64,000 nt of DNA from Anoxynatronum buryatiense (GTDB lineage: Bacteria > Bacillota > Clostridia > Peptostreptococcales > Tindalliaceae). The notes under the pieces were generated by a model, which saw nothing but the letters and a program-made list of their open reading frames with translations, ran no database searches and was not told the origin of the DNA. The stretch spans positions 248,001-312,000 of the forward strand of contig NZ_FXUF01000003.1 in assembly GCF_900182905.1 (NCBI RefSeq). The letters are read 5' to 3'. Shown piece after piece: positions 4,046 to 60,540 of the stretch. Positions within the stretch are counted from its first letter, which is position 1; each line of letters begins with the position of its first letter. The translations under genes were made by a program, and so were the position numbers.

Positions 4046-5470
4046 CTACTTTTCCAACTCCGGGTCAAAGAATTTACCAAAAAGTTCCTCGTCAGAGGGT
4101 CTATCTTCCTGAATCGGGCGTGATACCCATGTGGTGTTCATGTAATGCTTCAAATTAACATTTTCTGAAATAATATTCCCGCCCCAGGATCCACAACCTA
4201 AACTGGAAGTCATGGGCATCCCATTATTGAAGGCGCCGGCATTAGCTTTTGATTGGGGTTGTCTCACCATGATTCTGCTGACGGGAGCAATCATAGCTAA
4301 CTGATGAATGTGAGCATCATCAAAGGAATAAATACCACAAGAATGGCCTTTACCCTTGACCTCATAAATAGCACGCATCATTTCCAGTGCCTGATCAAAA
4401 CCGGTGTATCGATATACTGCCAACAAAGTTGTCAGTTTTTCGCTGGAGAAGAAATGCTCTTTTCCAATTTCATCTCCAATAACTATAATAAACTTGCGGT
4501 CATCGGAAATTGTAAATCCGGCTTTTTTAGCCAGATCAGGTGCTGCCTGTGCAACTGTATCTGGTAAGCGGTGACCTTCCTCGTCCCACATAGCTTTTTT
4601 TAGAAGAGCTTTTTCTTCTTCACTGGCCAAATAGCCACCTTCCAGCTGCAATTGATCCAACATTTTTTCATAGATGCTTTCTTCGATAATCAAGTTTCCA
4701 TCTGCGGAGCATCCTGAACCAAAGTCTGAAGTTTTACTCATTCGAGTGTTCATGGCCGCTTCTTGAATGTCAGCAGTTTCGTCAATAATCATGGTAGAGT
4801 TTCCGGAACCAACACCATAAGCAGGCGTTCCTGAGCTATAGGCAGATTTAACCATGTCAGGCCCACCTGTGGCCAGTACTAAATCTACTTCGGCCATCAG
4901 TGCCTTGGTCATGGGGATATTCACATTTTGAAGACATTGCAACAAGTCTGCTGGCGCACCTTCTCGTTCGAGAGCTTCTCGCATATATCGAACTGTTTCA
5001 AAAGTGGTTTTTCTCGAACGTGGATGAGGTGAATAAATAATTGCATTTCGGGCTTTAATGCCATATATGGCAGTTCCAGAAGGAGTTAATTCCGGGTTCG
5101 TTGTTGGAACGATTGAACCAATAATACCGATGGGTTTTGCATATTTGACAATTCCTTTTTCGGGTATTTCTTCAATGATGCCAACACTTTTCTGACGCAA
5201 AGCATCCCTCAAAATCCCTTTAATTTTAAAACGCTTATTAACGCGTCCCACTGGGTCTCCCAACCGACTTTCTTCAACGCCCATGAGAGATAGTTTTTCA
5301 AAAGTTTGTTTATTGGCAACTGACCAGGCTATTGCTTGTATCAAGTGATCGATCTCTCTTTGGCCATAGTGTTCGATTATCTTTTGAGCTTCGCGGGCCT
5401 TAAACAGTGCTGTGTCCAGCTCCTGTCGTTGTTCCAATGTTAGCTGCTTATCCTGTTGCAATTTGTGCAT
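4046..5470 (-). CDS. CoA-acylating aldehyde dehydrogenase, copy 2
   Basis: A 474-residue aldehyde dehydrogenase of the CoA-acylating branch (EutE/PduP/SauS-like), expected to convert an aldehyde plus CoA and NAD(P)+ to an acyl-CoA. The catalytic cysteine is C254 in SKTSDFGSGCSADGN; the nucleotide-binding region includes GTPAYGVGSGN. It is a clear paralogue of the enzyme at 12338-13810, sharing long blocks such as LRDALRQKSVGI and VRQPQSKANAGAF. It is the last gene of the leftward operon, separated from dctP by 141 bases that hold a hairpin. The substrate is unknown. SauS (sulfoacetaldehyde) is a related specificity, but no sulfonate genes are nearby. In the ring-opening model it could serve a second aldehyde or give higher dosage. 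Confidence 0.85.
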   Translation of the reverse strand: MHKLQQDKQLTLEQRQELDTALFKAREAQKIIEHYGQREIDHLIQAIAWSVANKQTFEKLSLMGVEESRLGDPVGRVNKRFKIKGILRDALRQKSVGIIEEIPEKGIVKYAKPIGIIGSIVPTTNPELTPSGTAIYGIKARNAIIYSPHPRSRKTTFETVRYMREALEREGAPADLLQCLQNVNIPMTKALMAEVDLVLATGGPDMVKSAYSSGTPAYGVGSGNSTMIIDETADIQEAAMNTRMSKTSDFGSGCSADGNLIIEESIYEKMLDQLQLEGGYLASEEEKALLKKAMWDEEGHRLPDTVAQAAPDLAKKAGFTISDDRKFIIVIGDEIGKEHFFSSEKLTTLLAVYRYTGFDQALEMMRAIYEVKGKGHSCGIYSFDDAHIHQLAMIAPVSRIMVRQPQSKANAGAFNNGMPMTSSLGCGSWGGNIISENVNLKHYMNTTWVSRPIQEDRPSDEELFGKFFDPELEK

Positions 5471-5550
5471 GTATCACTTCTTCCTTCCTGTTTTTGTTCT
5501 GAAAGTGTATATAAAAAGAACGGTGCATTATATAAGCCAGGGTTTTGTTG

Positions 5551-5582
5551 AAATGCAGCCAGAAACCAATCTGGCTGCATTT
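5551..5582 (-). terminator. Hairpin between dctP and the second aldehyde dehydrogenase
   Basis: Perfect 13-bp inverted repeat (5551-5563 with 5570-5582) around a 6-base loop. On the minus strand the 3' arm ends ATTT but no long T-tract follows, so it could be a leaky terminator or a 3'-end stabiliser that raises dctP mRNA relative to the downstream gene, a common arrangement for binding-protein genes. Confidence 0.55.
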
Positions 5583-5611
5583 GCATCAATGCTTCTGTGT
5601 TGTAAAATCAG

Positions 5612-6691
5612 TTATTGGGCATTTTCCAGTGCATTTAAGAGCGCATCTACATATTCTTGTCCGATGGCAGTTCCGATGGAATCATATACTCCCTGTGCTT
5701 TTACAAGAACTTCATCAACGAAGCTTTCGTCAAACTCAATGAGCTCCATGCCACCATCAATTAAAATTTGTTTGTTATTTTCATCAACTTCTGCAAGTCC
5801 GGCTTCAATTTCAGCTGCAGCTTCCTTAACTGCCTGCATCAGCGCTTCCTGGTAGAGCGGGTCGAGGCTGTCAAACTTACTTGCATTAATTAGAAATTGG
5901 TTGCAGTACAAAATATGGTGAGTCATGATCAGATAATCCTGAACTTCCTGAAAATTAGCGCCAACATTGGTATCTGTTGCATTTTCCTGAGCATCCACAA
6001 GTCCTTGCTGAAGAGATACGTATACTTCAGGCCAGGGAAGTGGTGTTGGTGATGCACCCAGTGATTGCCAGAATGCCATATGGTTTTGGTTTTCCATTGT
6101 TCTGATTCTCAACCCATTAAAGTCGTCAATAGAACGAATCGCTTTGTTTGATGTGGTTTCGCGGAAAGTCCCACCTTGAAGATAGTGCAAGATATACATA
6201 TTCTTATCTGCATAAGCCTGGTTAATCAGATCATAAAACGGACTTGCATTCAGAGCATAATCGATCTCTTCAGCGCTGTATTTTGCAAATACCATGGGCA
6301 GGTCGAAGATGGCGACCTCAGGAACGAATGACACTGTTTGTGCTGTTTGCGCAATGACAAAGTCAATGTCACCGGCAAGCATTTGTCCCTGGAGTTCCTG
6401 GTCATTCCCCAGCTGGCTGTTGGGGAAATAATCGATTGTCAGTTGCCCGCCAGTAATGGCTGCCACTTTTTCGGTCACAAGTTCACCGTAAAGTTGGGCG
6501 ATTGCACCTACTCCTGAGTTGTCTGCACCAATGAGTACTACCGGATCTAACGCATCAAAGCCTGAAGCAGCTGCAGGTTGATCTGCAGGTTGGTCTGATG
6601 GTTCTGCAGGCTGAGCCGGTGCTGGTGCTGGTGATCCGCATGCTGCCATTAGCATTGAAGCGACTAGTAAAAGTACAAGCAGTTTTTTCAT
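5612..6691 (-). CDS. dctP: TRAP transporter substrate-binding lipoprotein DctP
   Basis: A 359-residue extracytoplasmic receptor. It begins with a lipoprotein signal (MKKLLVLLLVASMLMAAC; Cys lipidation) followed by an Ala/Pro linker of about 25 residues, then the DctP fold. The LRIRTMENQ segment holds the arginine that in this family binds a substrate carboxylate, and PLPWPEVYVSLQQGLVDAQENA is the conserved hinge/pocket region. It should capture an organic acid outside the membrane and deliver it to DctQM encoded just upstream. The 110-base gap to dctM has no terminator. The carboxylate-binding Arg fits an alicyclic acid such as quinate but does not prove it. Confidence 0.93.
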   Translation of the reverse strand: MKKLLVLLLVASMLMAACGSPAPAPAQPAEPSDQPADQPAAASGFDALDPVVLIGADNSGVGAIAQLYGELVTEKVAAITGGQLTIDYFPNSQLGNDQELQGQMLAGDIDFVIAQTAQTVSFVPEVAIFDLPMVFAKYSAEEIDYALNASPFYDLINQAYADKNMYILHYLQGGTFRETTSNKAIRSIDDFNGLRIRTMENQNHMAFWQSLGASPTPLPWPEVYVSLQQGLVDAQENATDTNVGANFQEVQDYLIMTHHILYCNQFLINASKFDSLDPLYQEALMQAVKEAAAEIEAGLAEVDENNKQILIDGGMELIEFDESFVDEVLVKAQGVYDSIGTAIGQEYVDALLNALENAQ

Positions 6692-6801
6692 TTTATATCC
6701 TCCCTTGTCTTATCTTCATTTGAAACCAACGCCTTTACTGGAGTTGCAGATTAATCCATCGCATCACTCCTTTGACTGATGGTATTGACATCGAATTTTT
6801 C

Positions 6802-8085
6802 TTACAGAAACACGAGACTGAACCAAGGTATATAAGTAATGAGAAATAACGCTATCGCAAATGCCAGAATAAATGGTATAGCCGTTTTGGCAACATTCAT
6901 GGGTGCGGTATCAGCCAATGTTCCGGCAACAAAAAGATCAAGTCCAAATGGTGGTGTTGCCAGTCCAATTGAAAGACAACAAACCATGATGACGCCAAAA
7001 TGAACAGGATGAACTCCCATCGCCTGTACTGCTGGGAGAAGAATGGGTGATAAAATAACAATGGCCGGCCCGGTGTCCATGACCATACCCAGGATCAGAA
7101 AAACCACCACAATGCCTGTAAGAACTGTAAAACTGGATGTGAAGTTGCTTAATATGAAGTTTTCAATTAAGGCAGGTGCTTTGGCCAGTGCCAGTACACG
7201 TCCGAAAGCGATGGCAAAAGCAAGCACAAAGCAAAGGGGTGCATAGGTTTTGACTGCTTTTCCCAGGAATGGAACAATGCTTTTTACCGTAAAAGACTTG
7301 TAGATCACCAGCGATACAAAAAGAGAATAAAAAACAGAGATAACGGCTGCTTCAGTCGGGGTGACAATCCCTGAATAGATTCCCCCCAAAACAATGATGG
7401 GAGACATTAAAGCCCAAAAACTCTCCTTGAGCAGGCTGAGAAACCCTTTAGCCCGTAATTCGCTCATCTTAATGTTGATCTTCTCTTTATCTTCTCCGTT
7501 TCTAATGCAGTAAATCACCGCGTAAACCATCATTGCAAGTCCAATGAGAATTCCAGGCAAAATTCCTCCCAAGAAAAGTGCACCAGTGGAGACTCCTGTA
7601 GCAAGAGAATAGAGAACGAATGGAATGGATGGCGGAATAATAACCCCAAGCCCGCCTGCCGTTGCAATCATCCCTGCTGACCAAGTTTTGCTATACCCCA
7701 TTTCAACTAGAAATGGGATGGTCATGGAGCCTACTGCAGCGGTGGTTGCAGGGCCAGATCCAGAAATAGCACCATAAAAGAGGCAGGTCAGAATGACTGC
7801 ACATGGTAACCCGCCAGGCAGGTTTCCAACAAAATAAGCGAAAAAATTGAATAATCTCCGGGAGATACCACCCTCGGCCATTAAAACACCGCCAAGGATA
7901 AATAAAGGAACTGCCAGTATGGGTGTTGTGTCTGACCCTGAAAAGCTGTTGGCAATCAGTTGTTGAATAGAGCTTCCTGTTCCTCCCAGTATGAGAGGCG
8001 TCAGCGCACCCAATACCATACTCATAGTAATGGGAATGGCAAAAATTAAACTAACCATAAACACCAAAAAGATCCAGAATGCCAC
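6802..8085 (-). CDS. dctM: TRAP transporter large permease DctM
   Basis: A 427-residue, highly hydrophobic protein of the DctM family with about twelve membrane segments. Recognisable motifs include GALTPLILGG near the start, GAISGSGPATTAAVGSMTIP in the first half and LATPPFGLDLFVAGTLAD near the end. It drives Na+-coupled uptake together with DctQ. The start is GTG with AGGAGG upstream, and its first base overlaps the dctQ stop (TAGTG), so translation is coupled. Confidence 0.95.
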   Translation of the reverse strand: MAFWIFLVFMVSLIFAIPITMSMVLGALTPLILGGTGSSIQQLIANSFSGSDTTPILAVPLFILGGVLMAEGGISRRLFNFFAYFVGNLPGGLPCAVILTCLFYGAISGSGPATTAAVGSMTIPFLVEMGYSKTWSAGMIATAGGLGVIIPPSIPFVLYSLATGVSTGALFLGGILPGILIGLAMMVYAVIYCIRNGEDKEKINIKMSELRAKGFLSLLKESFWALMSPIIVLGGIYSGIVTPTEAAVISVFYSLFVSLVIYKSFTVKSIVPFLGKAVKTYAPLCFVLAFAIAFGRVLALAKAPALIENFILSNFTSSFTVLTGIVVVFLILGMVMDTGPAIVILSPILLPAVQAMGVHPVHFGVIMVCCLSIGLATPPFGLDLFVAGTLADTAPMNVAKTAIPFILAFAIALFLITYIPWFSLVFL

Positions 8086-8663
8086 TATACGTCACCTCCT
8101 GTTAAATTGGTCGCATCAGAAAGTGTTGTACCGGTGGATGCAACTTCCTGCTGTGCCTCTTTAAGTGTAGCCTCAACTGTTGTTTCTATTTTTTGATTGA
8201 AGTTTTTAAAGTTGTTGATAATTTCTTGAATCATGCGAACGACTGCAAGGGCGAATCCAATGTTGGTGGATAGATACATCATCCACATGGGAATCCGCAT
8301 TGCCGGCGAGAGCTGTCCAGTTGTTTTGATGATGCCAGTATACGTGATTGAGTATCTAAATAAGATAGCAAACAAAACCAGTACCATCAAGTTTGTAAGA
8401 ATCTCAATGGACTTTCGCAGCTTTTGGGGGAGCATGTCCATCACAACTGTAACTCGTAACATATTTCCTTTCTTAATGGTATAGCCGAGGGAAAGAAATA
8501 CTGTCCAAATATAACAGTATCGTGCAAATTCTTCTGGCCAGGGCATGGAACGCACAAAGGTTCTTGCCAGAATCTGAGCCATCATCACGGTGGAAATAGT
8601 CGCCAACAGGATAATTAAGATTGACTCTTCAAAGTGATCGTCCAACCATTTGATAACTTTCAT
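8085..8663 (-). CDS. dctQ: TRAP transporter small permease DctQ
   Basis: A 192-residue protein with four predicted membrane segments and the DctQ-type first helix region (WLDDHFEESILIILLATISTVMM) plus the conserved WPEEFARYCYIW block. The frame begins earlier at 8681, but AAAGGAG sits 8 bases before the ATG at 8663, so I use that. It overlaps dctM by one base. The C-terminal tail of about 40 residues is polar and Thr/Glu rich, longer than usual. Confidence 0.92.
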   Translation of the reverse strand: MKVIKWLDDHFEESILIILLATISTVMMAQILARTFVRSMPWPEEFARYCYIWTVFLSLGYTIKKGNMLRVTVVMDMLPQKLRKSIEILTNLMVLVLFAILFRYSITYTGIIKTTGQLSPAMRIPMWMMYLSTNIGFALAVVRMIQEIINNFKNFNQKIETTVEATLKEAQQEVASTGTTLSDATNLTGGDV

Positions 8664-8711
8664 AACATCGACTCCTTTCAACTATGGAAGTATAACCTTT
8701 GATCTATTATG

Positions 8712-9590
8712 TCATACGTCGCCTCGATGTGAAAGGATCGTAAAAAGTTCTTCGCGCATGACTTCAATAGGGGCCTTCTGGCCGCTCCACAGTTCAATTT
8801 GTTCGGCTCCCTGATAAAGAGACATTCCAAGACCATTCATCACCTGACAGCCTACCTGCTCGGCTTCGAGCAGAAATCTGGTTTTGGACGGGTTGTAAGT
8901 AGCATCGAAGCAAAGCTGACCAGGATTAAGAAAATCCTTTGGTACAGGTGTTTTATCCGCACTTGCAGCCATTCCAAGACCCGTGTTATTCATCACCACG
9001 TCCGAAAGTGTAACTTTTGTCTTTAACGCATTTGCTTCTTCAGGGTTAACCATTTCTGCCACCGGTGCAAACCGCTCATTGATGTCCTTTGTCAATTCTT
9101 GAGCAGCAGCGATGTTTAAATCGTAGATATATATCTTTTTGGCCCCATGATATGCCAAGACGCTACAAATAGCTCGGCCCGCACCACCGGCTCCAAGACA
9201 GATAAATGTTGAATCGGGAAGACTGATCTGAGGTGCTTCTTCCATCAGAGACCTTAAAAAACCGGTTCCGTCTGTATTGTAAGCAATCAAACGCCCCTCT
9301 TTTAGAACAACCGTGTTGCTGGCATTCATCTTTTCACATAGGGGATCCATTTCATCGACGTATTTCATCACTTCCACCTTGTTTGGCTTGGTAACTGCAA
9401 ACCCGGCAAAATTCATGTGACGAATGCCGTTAATGACATCCTCCAGATGATCATTTTCCACCTCTGCGTAAAAATAGAGCATATTAAGTCCGGTGGCTCG
9501 ATAAGCTGCATTTTGCATACGCGCTGCATATGACTGAGATAATGGTTTACCAAGTAGTGCTATCATTTTTGTATGGATATTAACCGGCAC
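8712..9590 (-). CDS. Divergent shikimate/quinate dehydrogenase-like oxidoreductase
   Basis: A 292-residue AroE-family enzyme with the catalytic Lys (K71 in VTKPNK), the conserved Asp (D107 in YNTDGTG) and a GAGGAG nucleotide-binding loop. It departs from biosynthetic AroE at the substrate carboxylate clamp. The normal SxS pair reads S-Y-A here (S20 kept, second Ser replaced by A22), and NVT before the catalytic Lys is AVT. The paralogue at 16081-16947 keeps SQS and NVT. The start is a GTG with a modest GAGAG site. It lies between TRAP genes and the TIM-barrel gene in the catabolic operon, so a catabolic role on a quinate-like or other alicyclic alcohol is more likely than shikimate synthesis. 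The substrate is inferred only. Confidence 0.82.
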   Translation of the reverse strand: MPVNIHTKMIALLGKPLSQSYAARMQNAAYRATGLNMLYFYAEVENDHLEDVINGIRHMNFAGFAVTKPNKVEVMKYVDEMDPLCEKMNASNTVVLKEGRLIAYNTDGTGFLRSLMEEAPQISLPDSTFICLGAGGAGRAICSVLAYHGAKKIYIYDLNIAAAQELTKDINERFAPVAEMVNPEEANALKTKVTLSDVVMNNTGLGMAASADKTPVPKDFLNPGQLCFDATYNPSKTRFLLEAEQVGCQVMNGLGMSLYQGAEQIELWSGQKAPIEVMREELFTILSHRGDV

Positions 9591-9664
9591 GTTTAATCAA
9601 CTCTCTTTCCATCTATTTACCTCTTACCGTCATACAGTGTTACAGTCATCATGACACCACCCAA

Positions 9665-10474
9665 TTAATATGCCAGCAATTTTTTCGCTTTTTCAAGGCA
9701 TTGGAGTGCATGTCCCAAAGTGCCACGCATCTGAATTTCTTTAGAATTTGGCAGTTCTATGGAAATTGGCTTTTGAGGCATTGCCTGAAGCATTCCCTTT
9801 AAATCAATTTCACCGTCACCTGGGTACAATCGCCCTTCTCTTGCGACTCCAATCATTTCAGGATCATCCAGGGAGGGGATGTAACCTGGGCCGTCACACA
9901 AATGAATAAATCCATAAAGAGAGTTATCTACTTCTGCCAGGTCTTTCGCTGCAACCTTTGATCGGTGAGCATGCAGGGTGTCCACCATAAGAGCGGCATT
10001 GGGACGATTGACTGCCTTCAGTATTTCCAGCGCTTCTGATAATCCCGGAACGCCCGAAAAAGTCACAAACTCAAGATTAACACGCAGGTTGTACGTGGCA
10101 GCTAAATCGCATATTTTTGCAAACTGTTCGATTGCAAATTCTTTGTTACTTGTCCAAACGCTGGAAAGAACATCTGTGGCACCCAGTTCTGCACCCGCAG
10201 AAAAAGCTGACTCATAGTCTTCCACTTTCAAGTCTTCCCTTACACGGGCCAGCTCAATGTCCATGAGTTGAATACCAGTATCTGATAACGTTTTCTTTAT
10301 CAGTTTAAATAAGCCGGAATCTTTGTCAAACTGAAACAGCGGTTCGTTGGGCAGATGCATGGGGATGGGGCGAAGGCCGACACAATCGTAGCCGGCTTTC
10401 GCTGCAATCCTAATCTGCTCAATGGGATCTGTTCCAGGAATCGTCAAATAGGCAAGCGAAAACTTTCTTGACAT
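9665..10474 (-). CDS. Xylose-isomerase-like TIM-barrel enzyme (IolE / 3-dehydroshikimate-dehydratase superfamily)
   Basis: A 269-residue protein of the AP-endonuclease-2/xylose-isomerase-like TIM-barrel superfamily. Candidate metal ligands appear in the order expected for this fold: Glu in VNLEFV, Asp in MVDTLHAH, His in FIHLCDGPG and Glu in ISIELPN. Members include inosose dehydratase IolE, 3-dehydroshikimate dehydratase AsbF/QuiC and keto-sugar epimerases, all acting next to a ketone on a polyol. GGAG lies 8 bases before the ATG. It sits between an AroE-like dehydrogenase and a ThDP enzyme, so dehydration of a ring ketone to a diketone is my preferred role. Simple isomerisation, or dehydration to protocatechuate, remains possible. 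Confidence 0.78.
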   Translation of the reverse strand: MSRKFSLAYLTIPGTDPIEQIRIAAKAGYDCVGLRPIPMHLPNEPLFQFDKDSGLFKLIKKTLSDTGIQLMDIELARVREDLKVEDYESAFSAGAELGATDVLSSVWTSNKEFAIEQFAKICDLAATYNLRVNLEFVTFSGVPGLSEALEILKAVNRPNAALMVDTLHAHRSKVAAKDLAEVDNSLYGFIHLCDGPGYIPSLDDPEMIGVAREGRLYPGDGEIDLKGMLQAMPQKPISIELPNSKEIQMRGTLGHALQCLEKAKKLLAY

Positions 10475-10503
10475 CAATGACTCTCCTTTCGGACTCAGAG
10501 CCC

Positions 10504-12321
10504 TTATTTATGAGAGGTAGAGTGGCTGGGAACCACATATTCACCCTGTTCATTTTTGACAACCTTACCGTTACTGATATTTTGTTTTGGCGTATAGATA
10601 TCATTGATATTCCAGCAACCTGGTGTGGGTACAGGAATGTTTTCCATGGGAACATCCAACAGGAACGGTTTATTGCTGGATAACGCTTGCTCAAGTGCCG
10701 GTTTGAACTCTTCGGCAGATTCAATTTTAAGGGCTTCCACACCGTAGGCTTTTGCAACAGCTGCCCAGTTTGGAGAATATGGTTCCCCATCAGGAGTGGT
10801 GAAAACAGTACCGAACTTTGTTTTGTAATTGGCATACTCAAGACCGGCAATGGTTCCGAAAGCTGCATTGTTCATCACAATCCAGATGACGGGTATGTTT
10901 TGTTCAACTGCTGTCGCCAACGTGCTGGGGTTTATACCAAAGCCACCGTCACCCACTAAAGTGATCACAGCCTTTTCCGGTGCTGCCAGTTTGCCACCAA
11001 TCAGTGCAGAGGCTCCAAAACCCATGGTCGCCAGACCTGAACTATGGTGAATGGATCCGGCCAATGTAATATCAAACTGCTGAGCGACGCCATTTTTGTT
11101 CCATCCCACATCAGTAAAAATTAAACTGTCTTCAGGAATGGATTCCTTGACATCTTTCAGAATGCGCTGAGGAGTCATGGGGAATCGATTGTCTTCAGAG
11201 ATGGCCACATTATCCTGTTTGAAAGATTCGCGCTTTTCTTTGATCATCTGACGAAGCTCAGGCTTACTAATCCCTTCGGGCTTCAGTTTTTTCGCTTCGT
11301 CCAAAATCTGTGCCAGTGCCTCTTTAAGATCAGCGACGGCACCGATACTCACCGGATAGTTGCGGCCTATTTCAGCCGGATCAATATCAATTTGTAAAAA
11401 CTCAGTTTTGTTCATGTCAAAAGTGACGCCGGGGTACCAACTGGAGCTGTCAGCTTCAGCAAAACGGGTTCCAAGTCCCAACAACACATCGGCATTAGCG
11501 GTAAACTGATGAGTGAATTCCAAGCCCCAGAAACCTGTTTGACCAAGCATCAGTGGATGTTTGTCTGAAAGGCATCCTTGCCCCATCAGTGTTCTTGATA
11601 CAGGAATATCGAGAAATTCAACTAGTTCAGCAAGTTCCTGAGAAGCGTCTGCCAATAAAACACCGCCACCTGCATGTATAACAGGGTTTTTCGCTTCAAT
11701 CAGCTTTCTGGCAATTGATTTGGCTGCTGAAGGCGCTAATGCAGGTTTAATGGTTTCATGACTGTCACGATAAGTGCGCGCAAAAAGGTCTTCTTCTATT
11801 TCCACAGAGAAAACGTCCATGGGAACAGAGATCAGCACTGGTCCGGGTCTGCCGCTTTCAGCCAGTCGAAAAGCTTTATCCAATATTTCAGGCATTGCTT
11901 CAGCGTCATCCACACGCCAGGCTCGCTTGACGATAGGCCTTAGCATTTCATATTGCGAACCATCGGCATGCATGTTGACTTCCTGGTGAGGATGCTTTCC
12001 ATAGTAATAGCGTGGTACATCTCCAGCAATTACCACCATGGGAATCGAATCAAATGATGCATTGGCTACTCCGGTGATCACGTTGGTTAAGCCAGGCCCC
12101 AGATGACACATGACCACGCCCGCTTTCTTTTTAATACGGGCATATCCATCTGCAGCCATGGCAGCTAACTGTTCATTTCGAAATGAAATGTACTGAAGTT
12201 TTTCTGATTTTGATAAAGCATCAAGAAATCCAATCACAGTATGACCACAAAGGCCAAAAATATACTCGACGCCACGGCGTTCAAGGTAATCCACCATTTG
12301 TACAGAAATTAATTTTTTCAA
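10504..12321 (-). CDS. ThDP-dependent enzyme of the acetolactate synthase/IolD superfamily
   Basis: A 605-residue three-domain ThDP enzyme. The N-terminal PYR domain has the catalytic Glu (E50 in SFRNEQLAAMAADGYAR), a central domain includes NPVIHAGGGVLLA, and the C-terminal PP domain has GDGGFGINPSTLATAVEQN...NNAAFG for Mg-ThDP. I start at TTG 12321 because AAGGAGG lies 7 bases upstream and the start is 16 bases past the preceding stop; the longer frame to 12435 would run back into the neighbouring gene. The superfamily includes decarboxylases, carboligases and C-C hydrolases (IolD, cyclohexane-1,2-dione hydrolase). A GHT near residue 27 and the neighbours favour ring-dione hydrolysis, which would yield an aldehyde for the acylating dehydrogenases. 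A 2-oxoacid decarboxylase is the main alternative. Confidence 0.82.
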   Translation of the reverse strand: MKKLISVQMVDYLERRGVEYIFGLCGHTVIGFLDALSKSEKLQYISFRNEQLAAMAADGYARIKKKAGVVMCHLGPGLTNVITGVANASFDSIPMVVIAGDVPRYYYGKHPHQEVNMHADGSQYEMLRPIVKRAWRVDDAEAMPEILDKAFRLAESGRPGPVLISVPMDVFSVEIEEDLFARTYRDSHETIKPALAPSAAKSIARKLIEAKNPVIHAGGGVLLADASQELAELVEFLDIPVSRTLMGQGCLSDKHPLMLGQTGFWGLEFTHQFTANADVLLGLGTRFAEADSSSWYPGVTFDMNKTEFLQIDIDPAEIGRNYPVSIGAVADLKEALAQILDEAKKLKPEGISKPELRQMIKEKRESFKQDNVAISEDNRFPMTPQRILKDVKESIPEDSLIFTDVGWNKNGVAQQFDITLAGSIHHSSGLATMGFGASALIGGKLAAPEKAVITLVGDGGFGINPSTLATAVEQNIPVIWIVMNNAAFGTIAGLEYANYKTKFGTVFTTPDGEPYSPNWAAVAKAYGVEALKIESAEEFKPALEQALSSNKPFLLDVPMENIPVPTPGCWNINDIYTPKQNISNGKVVKNEQGEYVVPSHSTSHK

Positions 12322-12337
12322 CAGTCTGCCTCCTTCT

Positions 12338-13810
12338 TTACGCCCGACCTTCTCTTTCGGGCTGGTAAAACTCCCCAAACAATGTTTCGTCACTGGGCTT
12401 ATCTTCAGGGATTTCTGTCGATACCCAGGTGACATTCATGTAATGATGCAAATGAACATTTTCCGAGGTGGCGTTTCCACCCCAAGTTCCACAGCCAATG
12501 CTAGATGTCATAGGCATTCCGTTTGTGAAGGCGCCGGCGTTGGCTTTTGACTGAGGCTGGCGTACCATGATTCTGCCAACATGAGCTTCAAGGGCAAGTC
12601 TGTGAATATGATTTTCATCAAAAGAGAAAATGCCAACACTGTGACCGACACCGCCAACTTCATGGATCGCCATGATAATGTCGATGGCATTTTGAAACTC
12701 ACCTTCATACTGATGAACCGCCAGAAGAGTTGTGAGTTTTTCCCGGCACCAAACATCATCATAACTTTCTGTATAGGACCCGGTACCTGTGGCAATCAGG
12801 AATTTACGATCTTCTGGAATTGAAAATCCTGCCAATTCGGTCATTCGCTGAGGTGACAGTGCAACTGAGTTGGACAATCGGTGACAAGCTTCATCCCACA
12901 TAACTTGTTTAACCGCATCTTGTTCCTGTTTGTTCAACAGGTAACCGCCAACTTCAACCAGTGCTCTCACACCCTCTGCATAAATGCTGTCATGAATGAC
13001 TATGTTACCATCGGCAGAGCAGCCAGACCCGAAATCAGACGTCTTTGAAAGCATCGTGTTGTGTGCTGCCTGGTATAGATCATTCTTGGCGGTTTCATCC
13101 CAGATCATTGTGGCATTTCCTGCACCAACACCATAGGCCGGTGTACCTGAGTGATAGGCTCTGCGCACCACACCTTGACCTCCGGTAGCGATGACCAAAT
13201 CACATTTTGCATTCAAAGCTTCAGAAAAGTCCTTGTTGATTTTGGCCTTTCCCTGCCCTAAAATTTGAATTAAGTCTTCTGGGGCACCTACCTGGCGAAG
13301 GCCTTCCCTCATTAATTCAATGGTCCTGCCCCCGGTTTTTGCCGCACGTGGATGGGGAGAAAAAATGATGGCATTCCGGGCTTTCAGCGCATAAATGGCA
13401 TTGCCCGCAGGTGTCAAGTCAGGATTTGTTGCCGGGACAACACAGGCAATAACCCCAACCGGCTTCGCGTACTTCACAATCCCTTTTTCTGGAATCTCAT
13501 CAATGATACCTACGCTTTTCTGACGCAATGCGTCTCTGAGAACGCCTCTGATTTTAAATTTTTTGTTTTCACGGCTTACCGGGTCTCCAAACTGGCTTTC
13601 TTCGATACCCATTTTGACAAGCTCTTTAAATGTCTGAGTGTTGGCCACTTTCCAAGCGATTGCCTGGATCGTTCGGTCGATGTCTTCCTGACTCCATTTT
13701 TCAAAAATCTTTTGCGCGGCATCTGCCTTTGCAAATTTTTCTTCGATCTCTGCAATTTGATCACTTGACAACTTTGCATATACTTCTTCCATCGAATTCA
13801 TTCTACTCAT
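12338..13810 (-). CDS. CoA-acylating aldehyde dehydrogenase, copy 1
   Basis: A 490-residue CoA-acylating aldehyde dehydrogenase. The catalytic cysteine is C264 (SKTSDFGSGCSADGN). GGGAGG is 7 bases before the ATG. It is paralogous to the enzyme at 4046-5470 and similar through almost its full length, differing mainly around residues 180-200 and 330-350. Placed directly between the HMG-CoA-lyase-like gene and the ThDP gene, it most simply turns the aldehyde released by the ThDP enzyme into an acyl-CoA that the lyase then splits. The exact aldehyde is unknown. Confidence 0.86.
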   Translation of the reverse strand: MSRMNSMEEVYAKLSSDQIAEIEEKFAKADAAQKIFEKWSQEDIDRTIQAIAWKVANTQTFKELVKMGIEESQFGDPVSRENKKFKIRGVLRDALRQKSVGIIDEIPEKGIVKYAKPVGVIACVVPATNPDLTPAGNAIYALKARNAIIFSPHPRAAKTGGRTIELMREGLRQVGAPEDLIQILGQGKAKINKDFSEALNAKCDLVIATGGQGVVRRAYHSGTPAYGVGAGNATMIWDETAKNDLYQAAHNTMLSKTSDFGSGCSADGNIVIHDSIYAEGVRALVEVGGYLLNKQEQDAVKQVMWDEACHRLSNSVALSPQRMTELAGFSIPEDRKFLIATGTGSYTESYDDVWCREKLTTLLAVHQYEGEFQNAIDIIMAIHEVGGVGHSVGIFSFDENHIHRLALEAHVGRIMVRQPQSKANAGAFTNGMPMTSSIGCGTWGGNATSENVHLHHYMNVTWVSTEIPEDKPSDETLFGEFYQPEREGRA

Positions 13811-13889
13811 TCATATTCCTCCCTACATTTTCATAGAACAATGTTCAGCTTTCAGGAAACGTTTTCCATTAATAATGAAGAACTCGTGC

Positions 13890-14801
13890 TTACTTAATCA
13901 AATCCTTGGAGCGGCCGGCTTTCAACACATAAGAATCAGTTTCGTGACCAACCCAATCCTGAAGTTTTTTTGCTGAACTGATGATCTGAACTAGATCGAT
14001 ACCAGTACTGATGTTCATTTCATCAAGCATGTGAATCACATCTTCAGAAGCTACATTGCCAGCCGCTCCCGGAACAAAGGGGCAACCACCGAGACCACCC
14101 AGAGAAGAATCAAAATGTGTGATACCCGCCTGCATGCCTGCCAGAATATTCGCCATGGCCATACCTCTGGTGTTGTGAAAATGAAGCCACCATTTTACAT
14201 CTGAATAACGTTCCTGCAGGTGTTTGCACATTGTATAGACCTGATTGGGTACTGCCATTCCTGAAGCGTCTGATAGAGAAATTTCTCGCACCCCAACCTT
14301 CAGATAAGCATCAATAATGCTTTGGATTGCGTCCAGAGAGATGCTCCCTTCCCAGGGAGATCCAAATGGCATTGAGATGGATCCGGACACTTCGATACCA
14401 CTTTTTTCTGCCAGTTCTACACTTTCTGCAAATCTGGCAATGCTTTCCTCTGGAGTCATGTTGATGTTCGCCAAGTTATGGCCAAGACTTGCAGATACAT
14501 TCAGTTTAATTTTACGACACCCACAGTTAACGGCACGTTCGACGCCTTTTTTATTGGCAACCAATGCTCGCAACTCTACGTTTTTAACTTCACTGAAATG
14601 GAAAAAAAGTGCATCGGTATCAGCCATTTGCGGAACAGCTTTGGGGTTCATAAATGAACCCAACTCAATGACAGTCAATCCTGCAGCAATCATCTCTTTT
14701 GTCAGCGTTATTTTAGACTGAGTATTCAATATTGTTGCCTCGTTCTGTAAACCATCTCGAAGTCCAACTTCACAAAGCGTAATGGCTGTTGGAAGTTTCA
14801 T
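13890..14801 (-). CDS. HMG-CoA lyase-family enzyme (DRE-TIM)
   Basis: A 303-residue DRE-TIM metallolyase with the family signature EVGLRDGLQNE at the N-terminus and the C-terminal glycine-rich loop SSLGGLGGCPFVPGAAGNVASED, which carries the active-site cysteine of HMG-CoA lyases. LHFHNTRG provides the metal-binding HxH. These enzymes cleave 3-hydroxy-3-substituted acyl-CoAs to acetyl-CoA and a keto acid. It is the first gene of the operon. Two adjacent ATG codons follow GAGGTG; I choose the second (14801). No leucine or mevalonate genes are near, so HMG-CoA itself is an unlikely substrate; homocitryl-CoA or a similar branched hydroxyacyl-CoA would fit the context. Confidence 0.87.
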   Translation of the reverse strand: MKLPTAITLCEVGLRDGLQNEATILNTQSKITLTKEMIAAGLTVIELGSFMNPKAVPQMADTDALFFHFSEVKNVELRALVANKKGVERAVNCGCRKIKLNVSASLGHNLANINMTPEESIARFAESVELAEKSGIEVSGSISMPFGSPWEGSISLDAIQSIIDAYLKVGVREISLSDASGMAVPNQVYTMCKHLQERYSDVKWWLHFHNTRGMAMANILAGMQAGITHFDSSLGGLGGCPFVPGAAGNVASEDVIHMLDEMNISTGIDLVQIISSAKKLQDWVGHETDSYVLKAGRSKDLIK

Positions 14802-14861
14802 CATCCTCACCTCTTTCATCACTATTCTGAATAATGAATGAATAATTTCTTGTAATTAAAG

Positions 14862-14925: not shown

Positions 14926-15079
14926 AATTTATCAATAATGATCCCTCATCATGATTGCTTTTTTCAAGGAATGGCTTTGTTGCTGACGATATGAATCCAT
15001 ATATTAAATTGATGATTTTTTGTCAAAGATTTAATGAATGAAATGGCTGAAAAATGCCAGAAGCTCAGGAGGCGATTAT

Positions 15080-15991
15080 ATGACCTTGCACCAGTTACGA
15101 TATTTCGTAGAAATGTGTAATACCTTACACTACACAAAAACGGCTGAACAACTCAATATTTCACAACCCAGTTTAAGTTATGCCCTTTCCGAACTCTCAA
15201 AAGAGCTCGGGGTTTCCTTATTTGGGAAAGATGGTAAAAAGGTTTTTTTGACAGAGTTCGGTGAAGCGTTTCTTCCTTATGCAGAGAGCGCACTACACAT
15301 CCTTTCACAGGGTGAAGCACAGATTTCAAATATGAAAAATCCATCGGGTGGAATCATTAACCTGGGATATATTTACAGCGTGAGCTTTGATGCCATTCCC
15401 CATCTTGTGGATGAATTCTACGGTTCTCAGGGCAATCGAAATATTCATTTCAACTTACAGGTGGGCATGACCAACACCCTCATTGAAAAACTGCTGGACT
15501 GTACCATGGATGTTGTCATGGCACCACACCCGGAAGTCCTCAGTGAAGGGATCTCTTCGGTGCCTGTATTCAATCAGGAGTTGTATTTGGTGGTCTATAA
15601 TGATCATCCATTGGCAACTCGTACATCTGTCACGATTGAAGATTTTAAAAATGAAAAATTTGTAATGATTCACAAAAATACAGACCTCTTTCTTCAAACT
15701 GAAGCGCTTTTCAAAAAACATGGAATAAGGCCGGAGATAGCATTTAAAGTCGACGAATGCAATTCAATGGCAGCTTTTGTGGGATCACAGCTGGGAATTG
15801 CCATCATGCCAAATATCCCATCCCTAGACAGCTACAAAGTAACAGCAATTCCATTTGAAGGAAGAAGCATGAACCGGTCAATTTGTCTTCTTTGGAACAC
15901 TAAATGCCGTGCAAATCCTGTTGTCAGCAGCTTTATCAATTACTTCACATCTCATCATGAACGTATTCGTTTGAACGGCGATTCGCAATGA
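15080..15991 (+). CDS. LysR-family transcriptional regulator
   Basis: A 303-residue LysR-type regulator. The N-terminal winged helix is MTLHQLRYFVEMCNTLHYTKTAEQLNISQPSLSYALSEL, and the effector domain (residues ~90-290) shows the usual two-lobed pattern. Translation could start at 15038, but AGGAGG lies 7 bases before ATG 15080. It is the only plus-strand gene in the first 56 kb and is divergent from the ThDP/aldehyde dehydrogenase/TRAP operon, so it most likely activates that operon in response to the imported acid or an intermediate. Confidence 0.9.
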   Translation: MTLHQLRYFVEMCNTLHYTKTAEQLNISQPSLSYALSELSKELGVSLFGKDGKKVFLTEFGEAFLPYAESALHILSQGEAQISNMKNPSGGIINLGYIYSVSFDAIPHLVDEFYGSQGNRNIHFNLQVGMTNTLIEKLLDCTMDVVMAPHPEVLSEGISSVPVFNQELYLVVYNDHPLATRTSVTIEDFKNEKFVMIHKNTDLFLQTEALFKKHGIRPEIAFKVDECNSMAAFVGSQLGIAIMPNIPSLDSYKVTAIPFEGRSMNRSICLLWNTKCRANPVVSSFINYFTSHHERIRLNGDSQ

Positions 15992-16080: not shown

Positions 16081-16947
16081 CTATGAGTTTGCTAGAATGC
16101 CTGATTTAACATCAGCTACGGGCATATGCGCACCTGTCCAGATTTCAAAGGCGAGGGCACCCTGTCCAACCACCATTCCGATTCCATTCACCGTCTGGCA
16201 ACCGGCAGTTTCAGCGATTTCCAACAGCTTCGTTTTTGGCGGAGAGTAGATAATGTCAACTACTTTCAGTTTCGAATGCAGCCACGCAGCATCTTTAATT
16301 AGACTGACTTTTTCCAGATCACCCATACCAACGTTGGTTGTATTCACAAGTACATCTGCAGTCGATAGCGCTTCCTTCAAAACCGTTTCATCCAAACGAT
16401 GCTGAGAAACTTGACAGGTCGGAATCTTTTCATTGATTAACCGACAAAGTGCCTCAGCAGGCGCTGCACTGCGATTAAAAATCATCAGTTCTCCAACATT
16501 CTCAAGTGCAAGCTGTATGGCGACGCTCTTACCTGCTCCTCCTGCACCAAGAATAATGATTTTTTTACCCGAAACGGGAATATTTTCTTCTGCCAGTGAC
16601 ATAATGAATCCCATTCCATCTGTGTTGTAACCGGTCAATTTCCCATTTTCATTTTTTACCGTATTCACAGCACCGATTATCGATGCTTCTGGTGACAGTT
16701 CATCAAGAAAAGGTATCACCTTTTCCTTGTGAGGCATGGTCACGTTGAATCCTGCCACATCAAGAGTCTTCATTGCCTGAATAGCTGCTTCCAGTTGATT
16801 TTGCTGAATGTCAAAAACCAGGTAAGTGTAGTTGAGGTTCAATGCCTGAAAGGCAGTATTGTGCATTTGTGGTGACTGACTGTGGCGTACCGGAGAACCC
16901 AGAAGTGCCACCAAACGTGTCTTGCCGGTTATTCTGTACTCTGTCAT
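16081..16947 (-). CDS. aroE: Shikimate dehydrogenase AroE
   Basis: A 288-residue AroE with canonical residues: the HSQSPQMHN substrate clamp, NVTMPHK with the catalytic Lys, YNTDGMGF with the catalytic Asp, GAGGAGKS for NADP(H), and a C-terminal GIGMVVGQGALAFEIWTG containing the conserved Gln. It interconverts 3-dehydroshikimate and shikimate. GGGGGAG is 7 bases before ATG 16947; the longer frame to 16968 overlaps aroD and is less likely. It is cotranscribed with aroD and the CM-SK fusion. The catabolic operon across lysR contains a second, divergent member. Confidence 0.92.
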   Translation of the reverse strand: MTEYRITGKTRLVALLGSPVRHSQSPQMHNTAFQALNLNYTYLVFDIQQNQLEAAIQAMKTLDVAGFNVTMPHKEKVIPFLDELSPEASIIGAVNTVKNENGKLTGYNTDGMGFIMSLAEENIPVSGKKIIILGAGGAGKSVAIQLALENVGELMIFNRSAAPAEALCRLINEKIPTCQVSQHRLDETVLKEALSTADVLVNTTNVGMGDLEKVSLIKDAAWLHSKLKVVDIIYSPPKTKLLEIAETAGCQTVNGIGMVVGQGALAFEIWTGAHMPVADVKSGILANS

Positions 16948-16960
16948 GTCAGCACTCCCC

Positions 16961-17740
16961 CTATTCATTGATTGCAGGCATATTCTGATGAATGAGTTGA
17001 ATTACCTGCTGCAGTTCAGATGCGGCAATTTGGCCAGGTGCAGAAGCTGCTTTTGCAGCACCAAAAGTGAGATCTGAACCATATACTTCTCCTGCAAGAC
17101 GGCTAATCATCCCCAGTCCTCCCATGGCCATTGTAATAAGCGGTCCGACGCCATGGTCTTCCTTCACACATCGGGTTGCCTCCATCAAAGCCAGCACATC
17201 CGCAGAACACCGGGGCATCACTGCCAACTTTGGGATGTCGCCTCCCAGCTCTGCAGCTTTTAGCATTTGCTGAACCATTTTTTCTGCTGAAGGAGTTTGA
17301 TTAAAGTCATGGCTCGAAATAATAACATTTACCTGATTTTTGCGGGCGGTGGTAACCAGCTCACGAATCATGGATTCTTCCATCGCCAGCTCAACATCCA
17401 CCAGGTCAACCAGGCGTGTCTGCATCACTGCTGAAAGCAGTTCCTGATAATAGGCAGCATCTATCTCACATTGACCGCCTTCAGCTTTATTACGAAAGGT
17501 GAAAATCAGGGGTTTTCCCATCAAGATACTGTTGATGCGTTTAAGTGCTTCTTTCACAGAATCAATGCTCATCACACCACTAAAATAATCCACTCGCCAT
17601 TCAACTAAATCACAGGCAAGCTCATTGATTATTCCAGCTTCTTCTTCCAGCGAAGACAGCATACTGCCAACCATGGGAGCACATACTTTTGGTGGGCCCT
17701 CACCGATGGAAACATCTTTGACACGAATAATCCGATTCAT
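16961..17740 (-). CDS. aroD: Type I 3-dehydroquinate dehydratase AroD
   Basis: A 259-residue class I dehydroquinase, which uses a Schiff-base lysine and interconverts 3-dehydroquinate and 3-dehydroshikimate. Visible active-site landmarks are DLVEWRVDYF near residue 45, the SSHDF histidine motif and PKLAVMPRC with the Schiff-base Lys. Type I enzymes work in both biosynthesis and quinate/shikimate catabolism. With AroE it could feed shikimate into 3-dehydroquinate for the neighbouring operon. The gap to aroE is 13 bases. Confidence 0.93.
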   Translation of the reverse strand: MNRIIRVKDVSIGEGPPKVCAPMVGSMLSSLEEEAGIINELACDLVEWRVDYFSGVMSIDSVKEALKRINSILMGKPLIFTFRNKAEGGQCEIDAAYYQELLSAVMQTRLVDLVDVELAMEESMIRELVTTARKNQVNVIISSHDFNQTPSAEKMVQQMLKAAELGGDIPKLAVMPRCSADVLALMEATRCVKEDHGVGPLITMAMGGLGMISRLAGEVYGSDLTFGAAKAASAPGQIAASELQQVIQLIHQNMPAINE

Positions 17741-17771: not shown

Positions 17772-18593
17772 TTAAAGATTAATGGCGTGACGGTGATGCA
17801 CCTTTCGATTAATATCCAGCTGCATTAATTGTTCAACAATTTCATGACTCACCTGTTCCACATCTTTTTCATCGGTGTTCACGACAAGGTCGGCAGCATC
17901 TTCATATAATGGGAGTCGGCTTTCCAGCATCTGGCTGATTTTATCGACAGACATATTGTCTTTCAGGAGGGGGCGACTCTGATCGTCACAAATACGCCGG
18001 TAAATCTCCTGGGGGCTCGCTTTTAACCAGACAATCACGCCGGTTTCTTTTATGTTCTCGATGTTCTTCTCGTTCAACACGACACCACCGCCGCTGCAAA
18101 ATATAATGACATTTTCTCTTTTTGAGAGTTCTTCCACCACATTACTCTCCAATTGGCGAAAAACTTGTTCTCCATAAAGCTGAAAGATTTCGCTCACCCG
18201 CATGTTCATGCGCTCCTCAATCACTCTGTCAACATCTATTTGCTCCATCGCCAACATATTTGAAAGCTCTACTCCCACAGTGGTTTTACCGCTTCCCATA
18301 AAGCCCACCAAGGTTATATGATAGGGAAATAAGCGCTTTGACTGGATTCTGCGACAGCTTTGAAGCACATGTTGATGAATAAAGCGTACTTCTTCCCGCA
18401 AATCTGGATTTGCCACATAATGACCGATTTGATTAATCACCTTTTCCTCCCGTTCTTTGTTGAAAATCGGCATTTTTTGCAGTTTCTTTTCCTCCATGAT
18501 TTCCATGATGATCTCCAGCCGCTTTTCAAGAACAGCAGCCAGCTGGCGGTCACAGAGGTCTACCTTCTTGCGCAGGTCTTCCAGTCTGGTCAT
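17772..18593 (-). CDS. aroK: Chorismate mutase-shikimate kinase fusion
   Basis: A 273-residue two-domain protein. Residues ~1-85 form an AroQ-type chorismate mutase (LRKKVDLCDRQLAAVLEKR...), and residues ~95-265 a shikimate kinase with the P-loop GFMGSGKTTVG, the DVDRVIEERM substrate motif and FCSGGGVVLNE. It joins kinase activity with the first step of Phe/Tyr synthesis after chorismate, an architecture known in Clostridia. It is the first gene of the aroK-aroD-aroE unit. The middle pathway genes (aroA, aroB, aroC) are not in this window. Confidence 0.9.
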   Translation of the reverse strand: MTRLEDLRKKVDLCDRQLAAVLEKRLEIIMEIMEEKKLQKMPIFNKEREEKVINQIGHYVANPDLREEVRFIHQHVLQSCRRIQSKRLFPYHITLVGFMGSGKTTVGVELSNMLAMEQIDVDRVIEERMNMRVSEIFQLYGEQVFRQLESNVVEELSKRENVIIFCSGGGVVLNEKNIENIKETGVIVWLKASPQEIYRRICDDQSRPLLKDNMSVDKISQMLESRLPLYEDAADLVVNTDEKDVEQVSHEIVEQLMQLDINRKVHHRHAINL

Positions 18594-58461: not shown

Positions 58462-58481
58462 ATATTTTCAAACAAGTGCCC

Positions 58482-58516
58482 GGCAAACTCTTTCTAATTT
58501 TTCAATAGAGTTTGCC
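58482..58516 (+). terminator. Hairpin after the first RocB-like gene
   Basis: 10-bp perfect inverted repeat (58482-58491 with 58507-58516) followed by AATTTATTT, 20 bases past the stop. Confidence 0.55.
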
Positions 58517-58601
58517 AATTTATTTGCATAATTCGCCCATTCATTTGCACTTGATATAAATCGTCTATATTCTTAATAAAATAATTACATTTTATGCTTT
58601 T

Positions 58602-58632
58602 AAAATGACGATGATGCGATTATCGTCATTTT
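58602..58632 (+). repeat. Inverted repeat upstream of the symporter gene
   Basis: 11-bp perfect inverted repeat (58602-58612 with 58622-58632) with a 9-base loop and T-rich right side. It is about 205 bases upstream of the sigma-54 promoter, so it could be an activator-binding site or a second terminator. The segment 58633-58836 shows no other clear feature. Confidence 0.4.
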
Positions 58633-58836
58633 TATTTTCATCCACTCTTGAATTTATGATTATCCAATTGTAAAAATTGCTTGATAATTGAATTTGTCTG
58701 CCAAAATCGATGACCATTGAAATTTACCGCATCCATCGATCATATTTTTGAACAAAAATTCAGTTGACATTCTTTTTATAATAATTCGATCTAATTCTTT
58801 CGTTTGGTAACAAGATTCTGAATTATGAACACTATT

Positions 58837-58853
58837 TTGGAACGAAACTTGCA
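58837..58853 (+). promoter_or_regulatory. Sigma-54 promoter of the alanine symporter
   Basis: TTGGAACGAAACTTGCA: YTGGCACGNNNNTTGCW with one mismatch (C to A) and correct GG-GC spacing, 145 bases before the symporter start. Confidence 0.72.
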
Positions 58854-58916
58854 AATAAATACCAATGAGATTATACTTATCGATGTTTGCTTATTAAAGA
58901 GGAGGTGTTGCCATTC

Positions 58917-58934
58917 ATGACTGTTTTTGTCTGA
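58917..58934 (+). other. Five-codon leader frame
   Basis: AGAGGAGGTG, the strongest ribosome site in this leader, lies 9 bases before an ATG that encodes MTVFV and a stop. The stop TGA overlaps the ATG of the next short frame (TGATG). Confidence 0.35.
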
Positions 58935-59032
58935 TGCCTGATGCCAAAGTGCTCAGGATTTTGCAGCAGAACATAATGAAAGAAAGGGGATATGTTAAAT
59001 GGAAGGATTACTTAATGTTGTTGGGTGGTTAA
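58934..59032 (+). other. 32-codon upstream frame overlapping the symporter start
   Basis: ATG at 58934 overlaps the stop of the five-codon frame, and the frame runs through the symporter ribosome site to a stop 34 bases inside the symporter gene. It begins MPDAKVLRILQQNIMKERG. It may be chance; if translated by coupling it would compete with symporter initiation. Confidence 0.3.
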
Positions 59033-60366: not shown

Positions 60367-60395
60367 TACTACCATCTTCATTCACAGCATTGACA

Positions 60396-60429
60396 AAGCC
60401 AGGTACCATTTTCATTTGGTACCTGGCTT
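60396..60429 (+). terminator. Intrinsic terminator after the symporter
   Basis: Perfect 13-bp inverted repeat (60396-60408 with 60417-60429) followed by GTATTT, 30 bases past the stop. Confidence 0.75.
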
Positions 60430-60540
60430 GTATTTACTGATAGGTAATAACATTTACAATAGTATTACTTATTCTGCTGTCAACTGTGACTGTCAGTTAA
60501 ATAACCCAACGCAGGGGATTGTGCAGCGTTATGGCTCCCA

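Follow-up and report, generated by a model that had tools for sequence, protein, structure and literature searches.

A leftward operon in a 64,000-nucleotide stretch of the Anoxynatronum buryatiense genome (contig NZ_FXUF01000003.1, positions 248,001 to 312,000; hereafter the window, in whose coordinates positions are given) likely serves the catabolism of hydroaromatic acids, quinate and/or shikimate, with the ring opened without aromatisation. A first-pass annotation, made from the sequence alone, had described a single operon encoding an HMGL-type lyase, two coenzyme A (CoA)-acylating aldehyde dehydrogenases (ALDHs), a thiamine diphosphate (ThDP) enzyme, a triosephosphate isomerase (TIM) barrel, an AroE-like dehydrogenase and a tripartite ATP-independent periplasmic (TRAP) transporter, and had guessed a quinate-type ring opening from the chemistry. 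The open reading frame (ORF) list and family searches place every one of these genes on the minus strand between 4046 and 14822, with a LysR-type regulator divergent on the plus strand; the location given earlier holds, while its upper end, 14801, falls short of the point where the lyase ORF stops, 14822. The guess from chemistry gains support from AroD and shikimate dehydrogenase genes inside orthologous operons, from the co-occurrence of the ThDP, TIM and lyase genes, from a histidine of the kind found in IolD and cyclohexane-1,2-dione hydrolase (CDH) throughout the ThDP family, and from the replacement of the end enzymes by a CoA-transferase and a citryl-CoA lyase, with one natural hybrid.

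We infer the individual reactions, including the 3,4-dione, the direction of cleavage, homocitryl-CoA and the products, as follows. The AroE-like enzyme would oxidise the ring at C3, converting quinate to 3-dehydroquinate and shikimate to 3-dehydroshikimate, and AroD would hydrate the latter to 3-dehydroquinate, linking shikimate to the route. QuiC/AsbF-type enzymes strip the C4 proton and C5 hydroxyl from dehydroshikimate, and the product aromatises. The metal-binding TIM barrel would likewise remove water across C4-C5, here from 3-dehydroquinate, and because C1 of this substrate is saturated and hydroxyl-bearing the elimination would yield a 3,4-dione and not an aromatic ring. Hydrolytic cleavage of the C3-C4 bond of this cyclic 1,2-dione by the ThDP enzyme would give homocitrate semialdehyde, which an acylating ALDH would convert to homocitryl-CoA and the HMGL-type lyase would split into acetyl-CoA and 2-oxoglutarate. 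We further consider it probable, if a shade less firmly, that this is a widespread, undescribed non-aromatising quinate/shikimate pathway taking a C7 acid to acetyl-CoA and 2-oxoglutarate in two forms: an anaerobic one that combines an acylating ALDH with a homocitryl-CoA lyase of the HMGL type, and another, in Azoarcus and actinobacteria, that has a CoA-transferase and a citryl-CoA lyase and, in the actinobacteria, also a plain ALDH. The genes of the operon and its flank are as follows.

4046..5470, minus strand: ALDH1, SauS-type CoA-acylating aldehyde dehydrogenase (NCBIfam SauS, 473.7 bits, below the cut-off of 600)
5612..6691, minus strand: TRAP solute receptor DctP (PF03480, 211 bits)
6802..8085, minus strand: TRAP large permease DctM (TIGR00786, 362.8 bits, above cut-off)
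8085..8681, minus strand: TRAP small permease DctQ (PF04290, 113.5 bits)
8712..9590, minus strand: AroE-like quinate/shikimate dehydrogenase (TIGR00507 aroE, 212.9 bits against a cut-off of 200.2)
9665..10477, minus strand: TIM barrel, xylose-isomerase-like, AP_endonuc_2 (PF01261, 69.6 bits)
10504..~12330, minus strand: ThDP enzyme with three domains (PF02776/PF00205/PF02775)
12338..13810, minus strand: ALDH2, second SauS-type acylating aldehyde dehydrogenase (NCBIfam SauS, 423.6 bits, below the cut-off of 600)
13890..14822, minus strand: HMGL-type lyase (PRK05692, 306.9 bits against a cut-off of 246)
15038..15991, plus strand: divergent LysR-type regulator (PF03466, PF00126)
16081..16968, minus strand: second shikimate dehydrogenase, AroE2 (from sequence)
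16961..17740, minus strand: AroD, type I 3-dehydroquinate dehydratase (PF01487, E=6.7e-71)
17772..18593, minus strand: chorismate mutase-shikimate kinase fusion (from sequence)

The true start of the ThDP gene is probably near 12330, because the longest ORF (643 aa, to 12435) overlaps ALDH2. The position of the LysR gene beside the cluster is conserved in relatives. Beyond it lie AroE2, AroD and the shikimate kinase gene, which the first-pass annotation had left unused; AroE and AroD are part of the system in relatives, and the chorismate mutase-shikimate kinase fusion is probably biosynthetic.

The earlier annotation had proposed a neighbourhood search for the gene set in other anaerobes, and the clusters indeed recur in dozens of genomes, so that the set cannot be put down to chance. 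Among 118 genomes of the order, the ThDP protein is present at 66-100% identity in 15, with the next relatives falling to about 36%; TIM homologues (E <= 1e-40) occur in all 15 carriers and one further genome, and HMGL homologues (E <= 1e-60) in all 15 and two more, one of these weak. Phylum-wide, the ThDP family is rare and patchy (5/398 genomes). A scan of GTDB species genomes gave 80 loci out of 219 candidate relatives, including Acidaminococcus, Clostridium symbiosum, C. aminophilum, Oscillospiraceae, Synergistales, Lutispora and Acetoanaerobium. Among the 42 loci that span 15 kb or more, ALDH is present in 35, TIM in 32, AroE in 30, HMGL in 29 and a TRAP permease in 26. Eight loci have no TIM, HMGL, AroE or AroD near the ThDP gene; of the seven of these genomes that were checked, six have a TIM gene elsewhere and one has none, and in two Synergistales genomes the remaining genes of the set form a second operon. 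The close AroE-like protein is not universal, and most clusters that lack it have another AroE.

Individual clusters vary around this set. At four loci the TRAP genes are replaced by what appears, to judge from gene order and the first residues of the proteins, to be a TctCBA-type tripartite tricarboxylate transporter (L187 6961-10182, L188 11687-14905, L189 5248-8418 and L180 11404-14484), and a methylisocitrate-lyase/phosphoenolpyruvate-mutase family protein adjoins the HMGL gene in some clusters (L050 11891-12799, L176 15680-16537). A Gfo/Idh dehydrogenase weakly similar to inositol and levoglucosan dehydrogenases recurs (L038 1386-2582, L167 5066-6379, L175 7917-9152, L179 5506-6681) and could be an alternative quinate dehydrogenase. 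Paralogous clusters with ThDP, TIM, ALDH and AroD genes occur in C. symbiosum (L168 1897-12916) and C. transplantifaecale (L169 5190-18082); each also contains a fructose-6-phosphate aldolase-type gene and two pairs of transketolase-like genes, with an IolG-like Gfo/Idh dehydrogenase in the C. transplantifaecale cluster, and perhaps they serve a related ring compound.

The presence of AroD within orthologous operons is, in our view, the strongest new evidence on the substrate class, which gene context suggests to be hydroaromatic. A type I AroD and a shikimate dehydrogenase accompany the orthologous clusters of Synergistales, Oscillospiraceae, Acidaminococcus and relatives in the order, in many cases within the operon itself. 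The second operon of the Synergistales (L165, L166) reads AroE-TIM-AroD-HMGL-TRAP, and Synergistales MS502-76 (L086) has TIM-ALDH-ThDP-AroD with TRAP-AroE-HMGL further along; within the order, relatives show AroK-AroD-TIM-HMGL-ALDH-ThDP-AroE (L182), AroK-AroD-TIM-ALDH-Gfo/Idh-ThDP-TRAP-AroE (L179) and AroK-AroD-TIM-HMGL-ThDP-TRAP-AroE (L173). In 9 of the 16 TIM-bearing genomes of the order, the ThDP or TIM gene has a dehydroquinase (type I or type II) no more than 10 kb away, where random placement would by our own estimate give roughly one per cent. The in-operon AroDs score 200.9-229.6 bits against a family cut-off of 139.3 and keep both the Schiff-base lysine and the catalytic histidine. 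Homologues of AroE2 (44-57% identity) adjoin the ThDP or TIM gene at eight loci (L173, L174, L176, L177, L179, L180, L182, L183), and AroK homologues adjoin the clusters at four (L173, L179, L180, L182). The AroE-like enzyme of the operon itself conserves the catalytic Lys, Asn, Asp and Gln motifs, with TKPNK and YNTDG kept, in an alignment of 30 sequences. Because AroD interconverts 3-dehydroquinate and 3-dehydroshikimate, quinate and shikimate should both be accepted by the pathway.

The TIM barrel had been called IolE/AsbF-type. No IolE family model was matched, and the only family matches were weak ones to QuiC and IolO; the protein is better described as a TIM barrel of the QuiC/IolI type. 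Against the two-domain QuiC model the protein scores 29.3 bits, and the two halves of the corresponding pair in Azoarcus 156 and 131 bits, none of them reaching the cut-off of 1200. The predicted structure (predicted local distance difference test score 94.5) is closest in fold to Lmo2234, IolI and QuiC1 (5hmq), with a putative metal site at E136/D166/H192/E241 whose ligands are invariant in 33 sequences. In a comparison with the QuiC1 active-site residues Glu134, Asp165, Gln191, Glu239, Arg210 and His168, the TIM family keeps the three acidic residues at the metal site, has His where QuiC1 has Gln191, and carries a conserved arginine. The two active sites are related and not identical, which would suit a different substrate.

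The ThDP enzyme belongs to a separate subfamily, with 66-89% identity among relatives in the order. The evidence on its reaction centres on an invariant histidine, His65 in the numbering of the 643-aa ORF, located in the motif FGLCGHT immediately after the conserved glycine of the first domain (Gly27). The residue at this position is His in 61 of 61 members of the ThDP family, in 9 of 9 IolD proteins and in the Azoarcus homologue, and Gly in 7 of 7 acetolactate synthases. It corresponds to His28 of CDH, an equivalence that stands by alignment offset only. Standard position 28 affects activity in the ThDP superfamily (PMC3534367), and the CDH-H28A/N484A variant ligates and has an altered reaction scope (PMC8541089; PMC12247030; PDB 4d5g). 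The protein reaches the cut-offs neither of IolD (TIGR04377, 257 bits against 715) nor of acetolactate synthase (418 against 866 for PRK06276 and 404 against 538 for TIGR00118), nor, in the family searches, that of any 2-oxoacid decarboxylase; clustering with these enzymes, together with action on an open-chain 2-oxoacid alone, was one of the refutations that the first-pass annotation had named. The genome of the window has two genuine IolD genes elsewhere (G000:C1:600214-602055 and G000:C1:130152-131990), which indicates that inositol catabolism is separate from the operon. A second histidine common to the ThDP family and IolD, His463, was dropped as an argument, being Leu in the Azoarcus enzyme.

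ALDH1 is 66-82% identical to the ALDHs of other clusters and ALDH2 82-88% identical to those of the nearest relatives. The HMGL-type lyase retains the RDG, HxH and GGCP motifs, lies above the HMG-CoA lyase cut-off of PRK05692 and scores far below that of homocitrate synthase (86.9 against 462.9). On a plasmid of Azoarcus sp. KH32C, a ThDP homologue at 58.5% identity sits inside an operon with the order split QuiC, CoA-transferase, citryl-CoA lyase, ThDP, shikimate dehydrogenase and AroD, in which the split-QuiC pair consists of the TIM protein and an HPPD-like neighbour and the CoA-transferase is of family III, succinate-glutarate type. Streptomyces and Nonomuraea have ThDP homologues (46-47%) with a plain ALDH immediately upstream, a CoA-transferase and citryl-CoA lyase as in Azoarcus, and, in the vicinity, an AroE and pyrroloquinoline quinone (PQQ) dehydrogenases; Nonomuraea also has a QuiC-like TIM. 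The PQQ-dependent dehydrogenases adjoining these actinobacterial clusters (L185 5161-7317; L186 5508-7646 and 18372-20444) possibly oxidise quinate outside the cytoplasm.

A natural hybrid is found in the Bacillota genome G165 (L187), which combines an acylating ALDH (72%), ThDP, TIM, AroD and AroE with a citryl-CoA lyase in place of HMGL. The same replacement occurs in L184 and L186, with a homologue beside the ThDP gene in L185, and the replacement lyases score 460.7, 384.9 and 347.5 against PRK06224.1-1, all above the cut-off of 261. This exchange is the most telling observation. Lyases of two different, unrelated folds occur in the same context, as do two unrelated routes to a thioester, which suggests one shared logic: an aldehyde or acid would be converted to the CoA ester of a tertiary beta-hydroxy acid and then to acetyl-CoA and a 2-oxoacid. 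The CoA ester would accordingly be citrate-like, and cleavage of the dehydroquinate ring at C3-C4 predicts such a compound, homocitryl-CoA, with 2-oxoglutarate as the second product. PF06050 (2-hydroxyacyl-CoA dehydratase), considered as a sign of 2-oxoglutarate fermentation, does not tell carriers of the set and non-carriers apart.

Other explanations can be put to the same evidence. An ordinary aromatising route, in which a QuiC-type TIM barrel works with the AroE-like enzyme to make protocatechuate from shikimate or quinate while the ThDP enzyme, ALDHs and lyase are merely co-regulated for another purpose, would account for the relation of the barrel to QuiC by fold and weakly by sequence, and for the resemblance of the Azoarcus TIM and its HPPD-like neighbour to a split QuiC. 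We nonetheless find it quite improbable, given that ThDP, TIM and lyase genes occur together in 15 of 15 carriers in the order, that AroD, unneeded between shikimate and protocatechuate, sits in many operons, and that no ring-cleavage dioxygenase or benzoyl-CoA-type genes were seen among the ORFs of the window. Somewhat more credible, though still unlikely, is a pathway with the same substrates and another middle: the ThDP enzyme would either act on dehydroquinate itself, splitting it as an acyloin, or cut in the reverse sense to leave an acid at C3 and an aldehyde at C4, and the barrel would serve as an isomerase or epimerase. IolI and epimerases are among the nearest folds of the barrel, a CoA-transferase as in Azoarcus would suit an acid at C3, and no TIM gene was found near the ThDP gene in L188 and L189; yet the aldehyde must sit on the short arm if an acylating ALDH is to be followed by a beta-hydroxyacyl-CoA lyase, and in the actinobacteria a plain ALDH is available to feed the CoA-transferase.

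A cyclitol or sugar-acid pathway of the inositol kind, with AroE and AroD as coincidental neighbours, could draw on the IolG-like Gfo/Idh dehydrogenase of some clusters and on the transketolase and fructose-6-phosphate aldolase-type genes of the paralogous C. symbiosum and C. transplantifaecale clusters, but AroD and AroE accompany the set repeatedly in Bacillota, in Synergistales and in Azoarcus, and the host has its two separate true IolD genes, which leaves this reading very improbable. Least probable of all is that the operon acts in the metabolism of sulfonates or of leucine and HMG-CoA, to which the names of its best database matches would point: the top NCBIfam names are indeed acylating sulfoacetaldehyde dehydrogenase and HMG-CoA lyase, but neither ALDH reaches the SauS cut-off, no leucine-degradation genes are present among the ORFs of the window, and a citryl-CoA lyase substitutes for the lyase in L187 and outside Bacillota. 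HMG-CoA as the substrate of the lyase, which the first-pass annotation had named as a possible refutation, is thus argued against by the context as far as this can be tested.

Several observations weigh against the preferred reading, the opening of a quinate or shikimate ring without aromatisation. Biosynthesis, too, uses AroD and AroE, and AroD is the sole PF01487 match and the only dehydroquinase found in the window's genome, no type II enzyme having been found there. Part of the QuiC active site is missing from the barrel, in which Gln191 is replaced by His and the residue equivalent to His168 is retained as His in 24 of the 33 sequences, the other 9 having Tyr; isomerases and epimerases are among the top matches of its predicted fold, and the barrel might be an isomerase instead of a dehydratase. 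In both sequence and fold, acetolactate synthase, BbmA and glyoxylate carboligase are closer to the ThDP enzyme than IolD and CDH are. This overall likeness to acetolactate synthase and glyoxylate carboligase indicates that the enzyme is not a member of IolD, and weakens the claim that it is an IolD, not the claim that it works like one. The two ALDHs of the window show no clear division of labour, the CoA-transferase variant is also compatible with another direction of cleavage (acid at C3), and the ligand of DctP, whose transporter would take up quinate or shikimate, is not assignable by sequence, its nearest solved receptors including SiaP types.

The proposed pathway resembles several known systems in part. 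The IolG-IolE-IolD route of myo-inositol also employs a ring dehydrogenase, a metal-dependent TIM dehydratase producing a cyclic 1,2-dione and a ThDP ring-opening hydrolase, and IolD has a His at position 28 in common with the operon's ThDP enzyme; unlike that route, the operon has an AroE-type dehydrogenase, and its product would pass through a CoA ester and a lyase. CDH is alike in ThDP fold (TM score 0.82 to the operon's enzyme) and has its His at the H28 position by offset, but its full-length score is well below those of acetolactate synthase and BbmA and the substrate proposed here differs. Textbook degradation of quinate and shikimate runs via protocatechuate and oxygen-dependent ring fission. 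The Qui/Qsu systems that form protocatechuate have in common with the operon an AroE/YdiB-type dehydrogenase, AroD and a QuiC-related TIM barrel, whereas in the operon a ThDP enzyme, a CoA-acylating ALDH and a retro-Claisen lyase would replace aromatic ring fission, with no oxygen needed. Homocitrate synthase belongs with the operon's lyase to the HMGL-like superfamily, in which the latter would be expected to cleave homocitryl-CoA.

Plants contain the acids quinate and shikimate in abundance, and quinate makes up half of chlorogenic acid. Reports that hydroaromatic acids are fermented anaerobically go back decades, to our knowledge without genes, and we know of no genes or enzymes identified for it in Propionivibrio limicola, a fermentative user of hydroaromatic substrates, as the host of the operon would be. 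Fermentation of hydroaromatic compounds by P. limicola was reportedly the subject of work by Brune, Ludwig and Schink in 2002, to judge from its title as cited in PMC11881992. The first-pass annotation knew of no described pathway of this kind, and we found none in the open-access literature that was searched; the enzyme families and the logic of ThDP ring opening are each known, and the pathway as a whole appears to be undescribed. If correct, it would supply anaerobic hydroaromatic fermentation in gut, rumen and sediment bacteria with genes and enzymes and, in the ThDP subfamily, with a marker family; acetyl-CoA and 2-oxoglutarate would feed central metabolism directly. It would also place another ThDP ring-opening pathway alongside those of inositol and cyclohexanedione, and would have HMGL-like and citryl-CoA lyases acting on a homocitryl-CoA.

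Elsewhere in the window, a long leftward run of genes (19355-41631) reads as type IV pilus assembly, with a prepilin peptidase, assembly ATPases and pilin-like proteins, and includes a 986-aa pilin-like protein and a VWA-like protein. At 56809-62202, a sodium:alanine-type symporter lies between two related M20-like peptidases on opposite strands.

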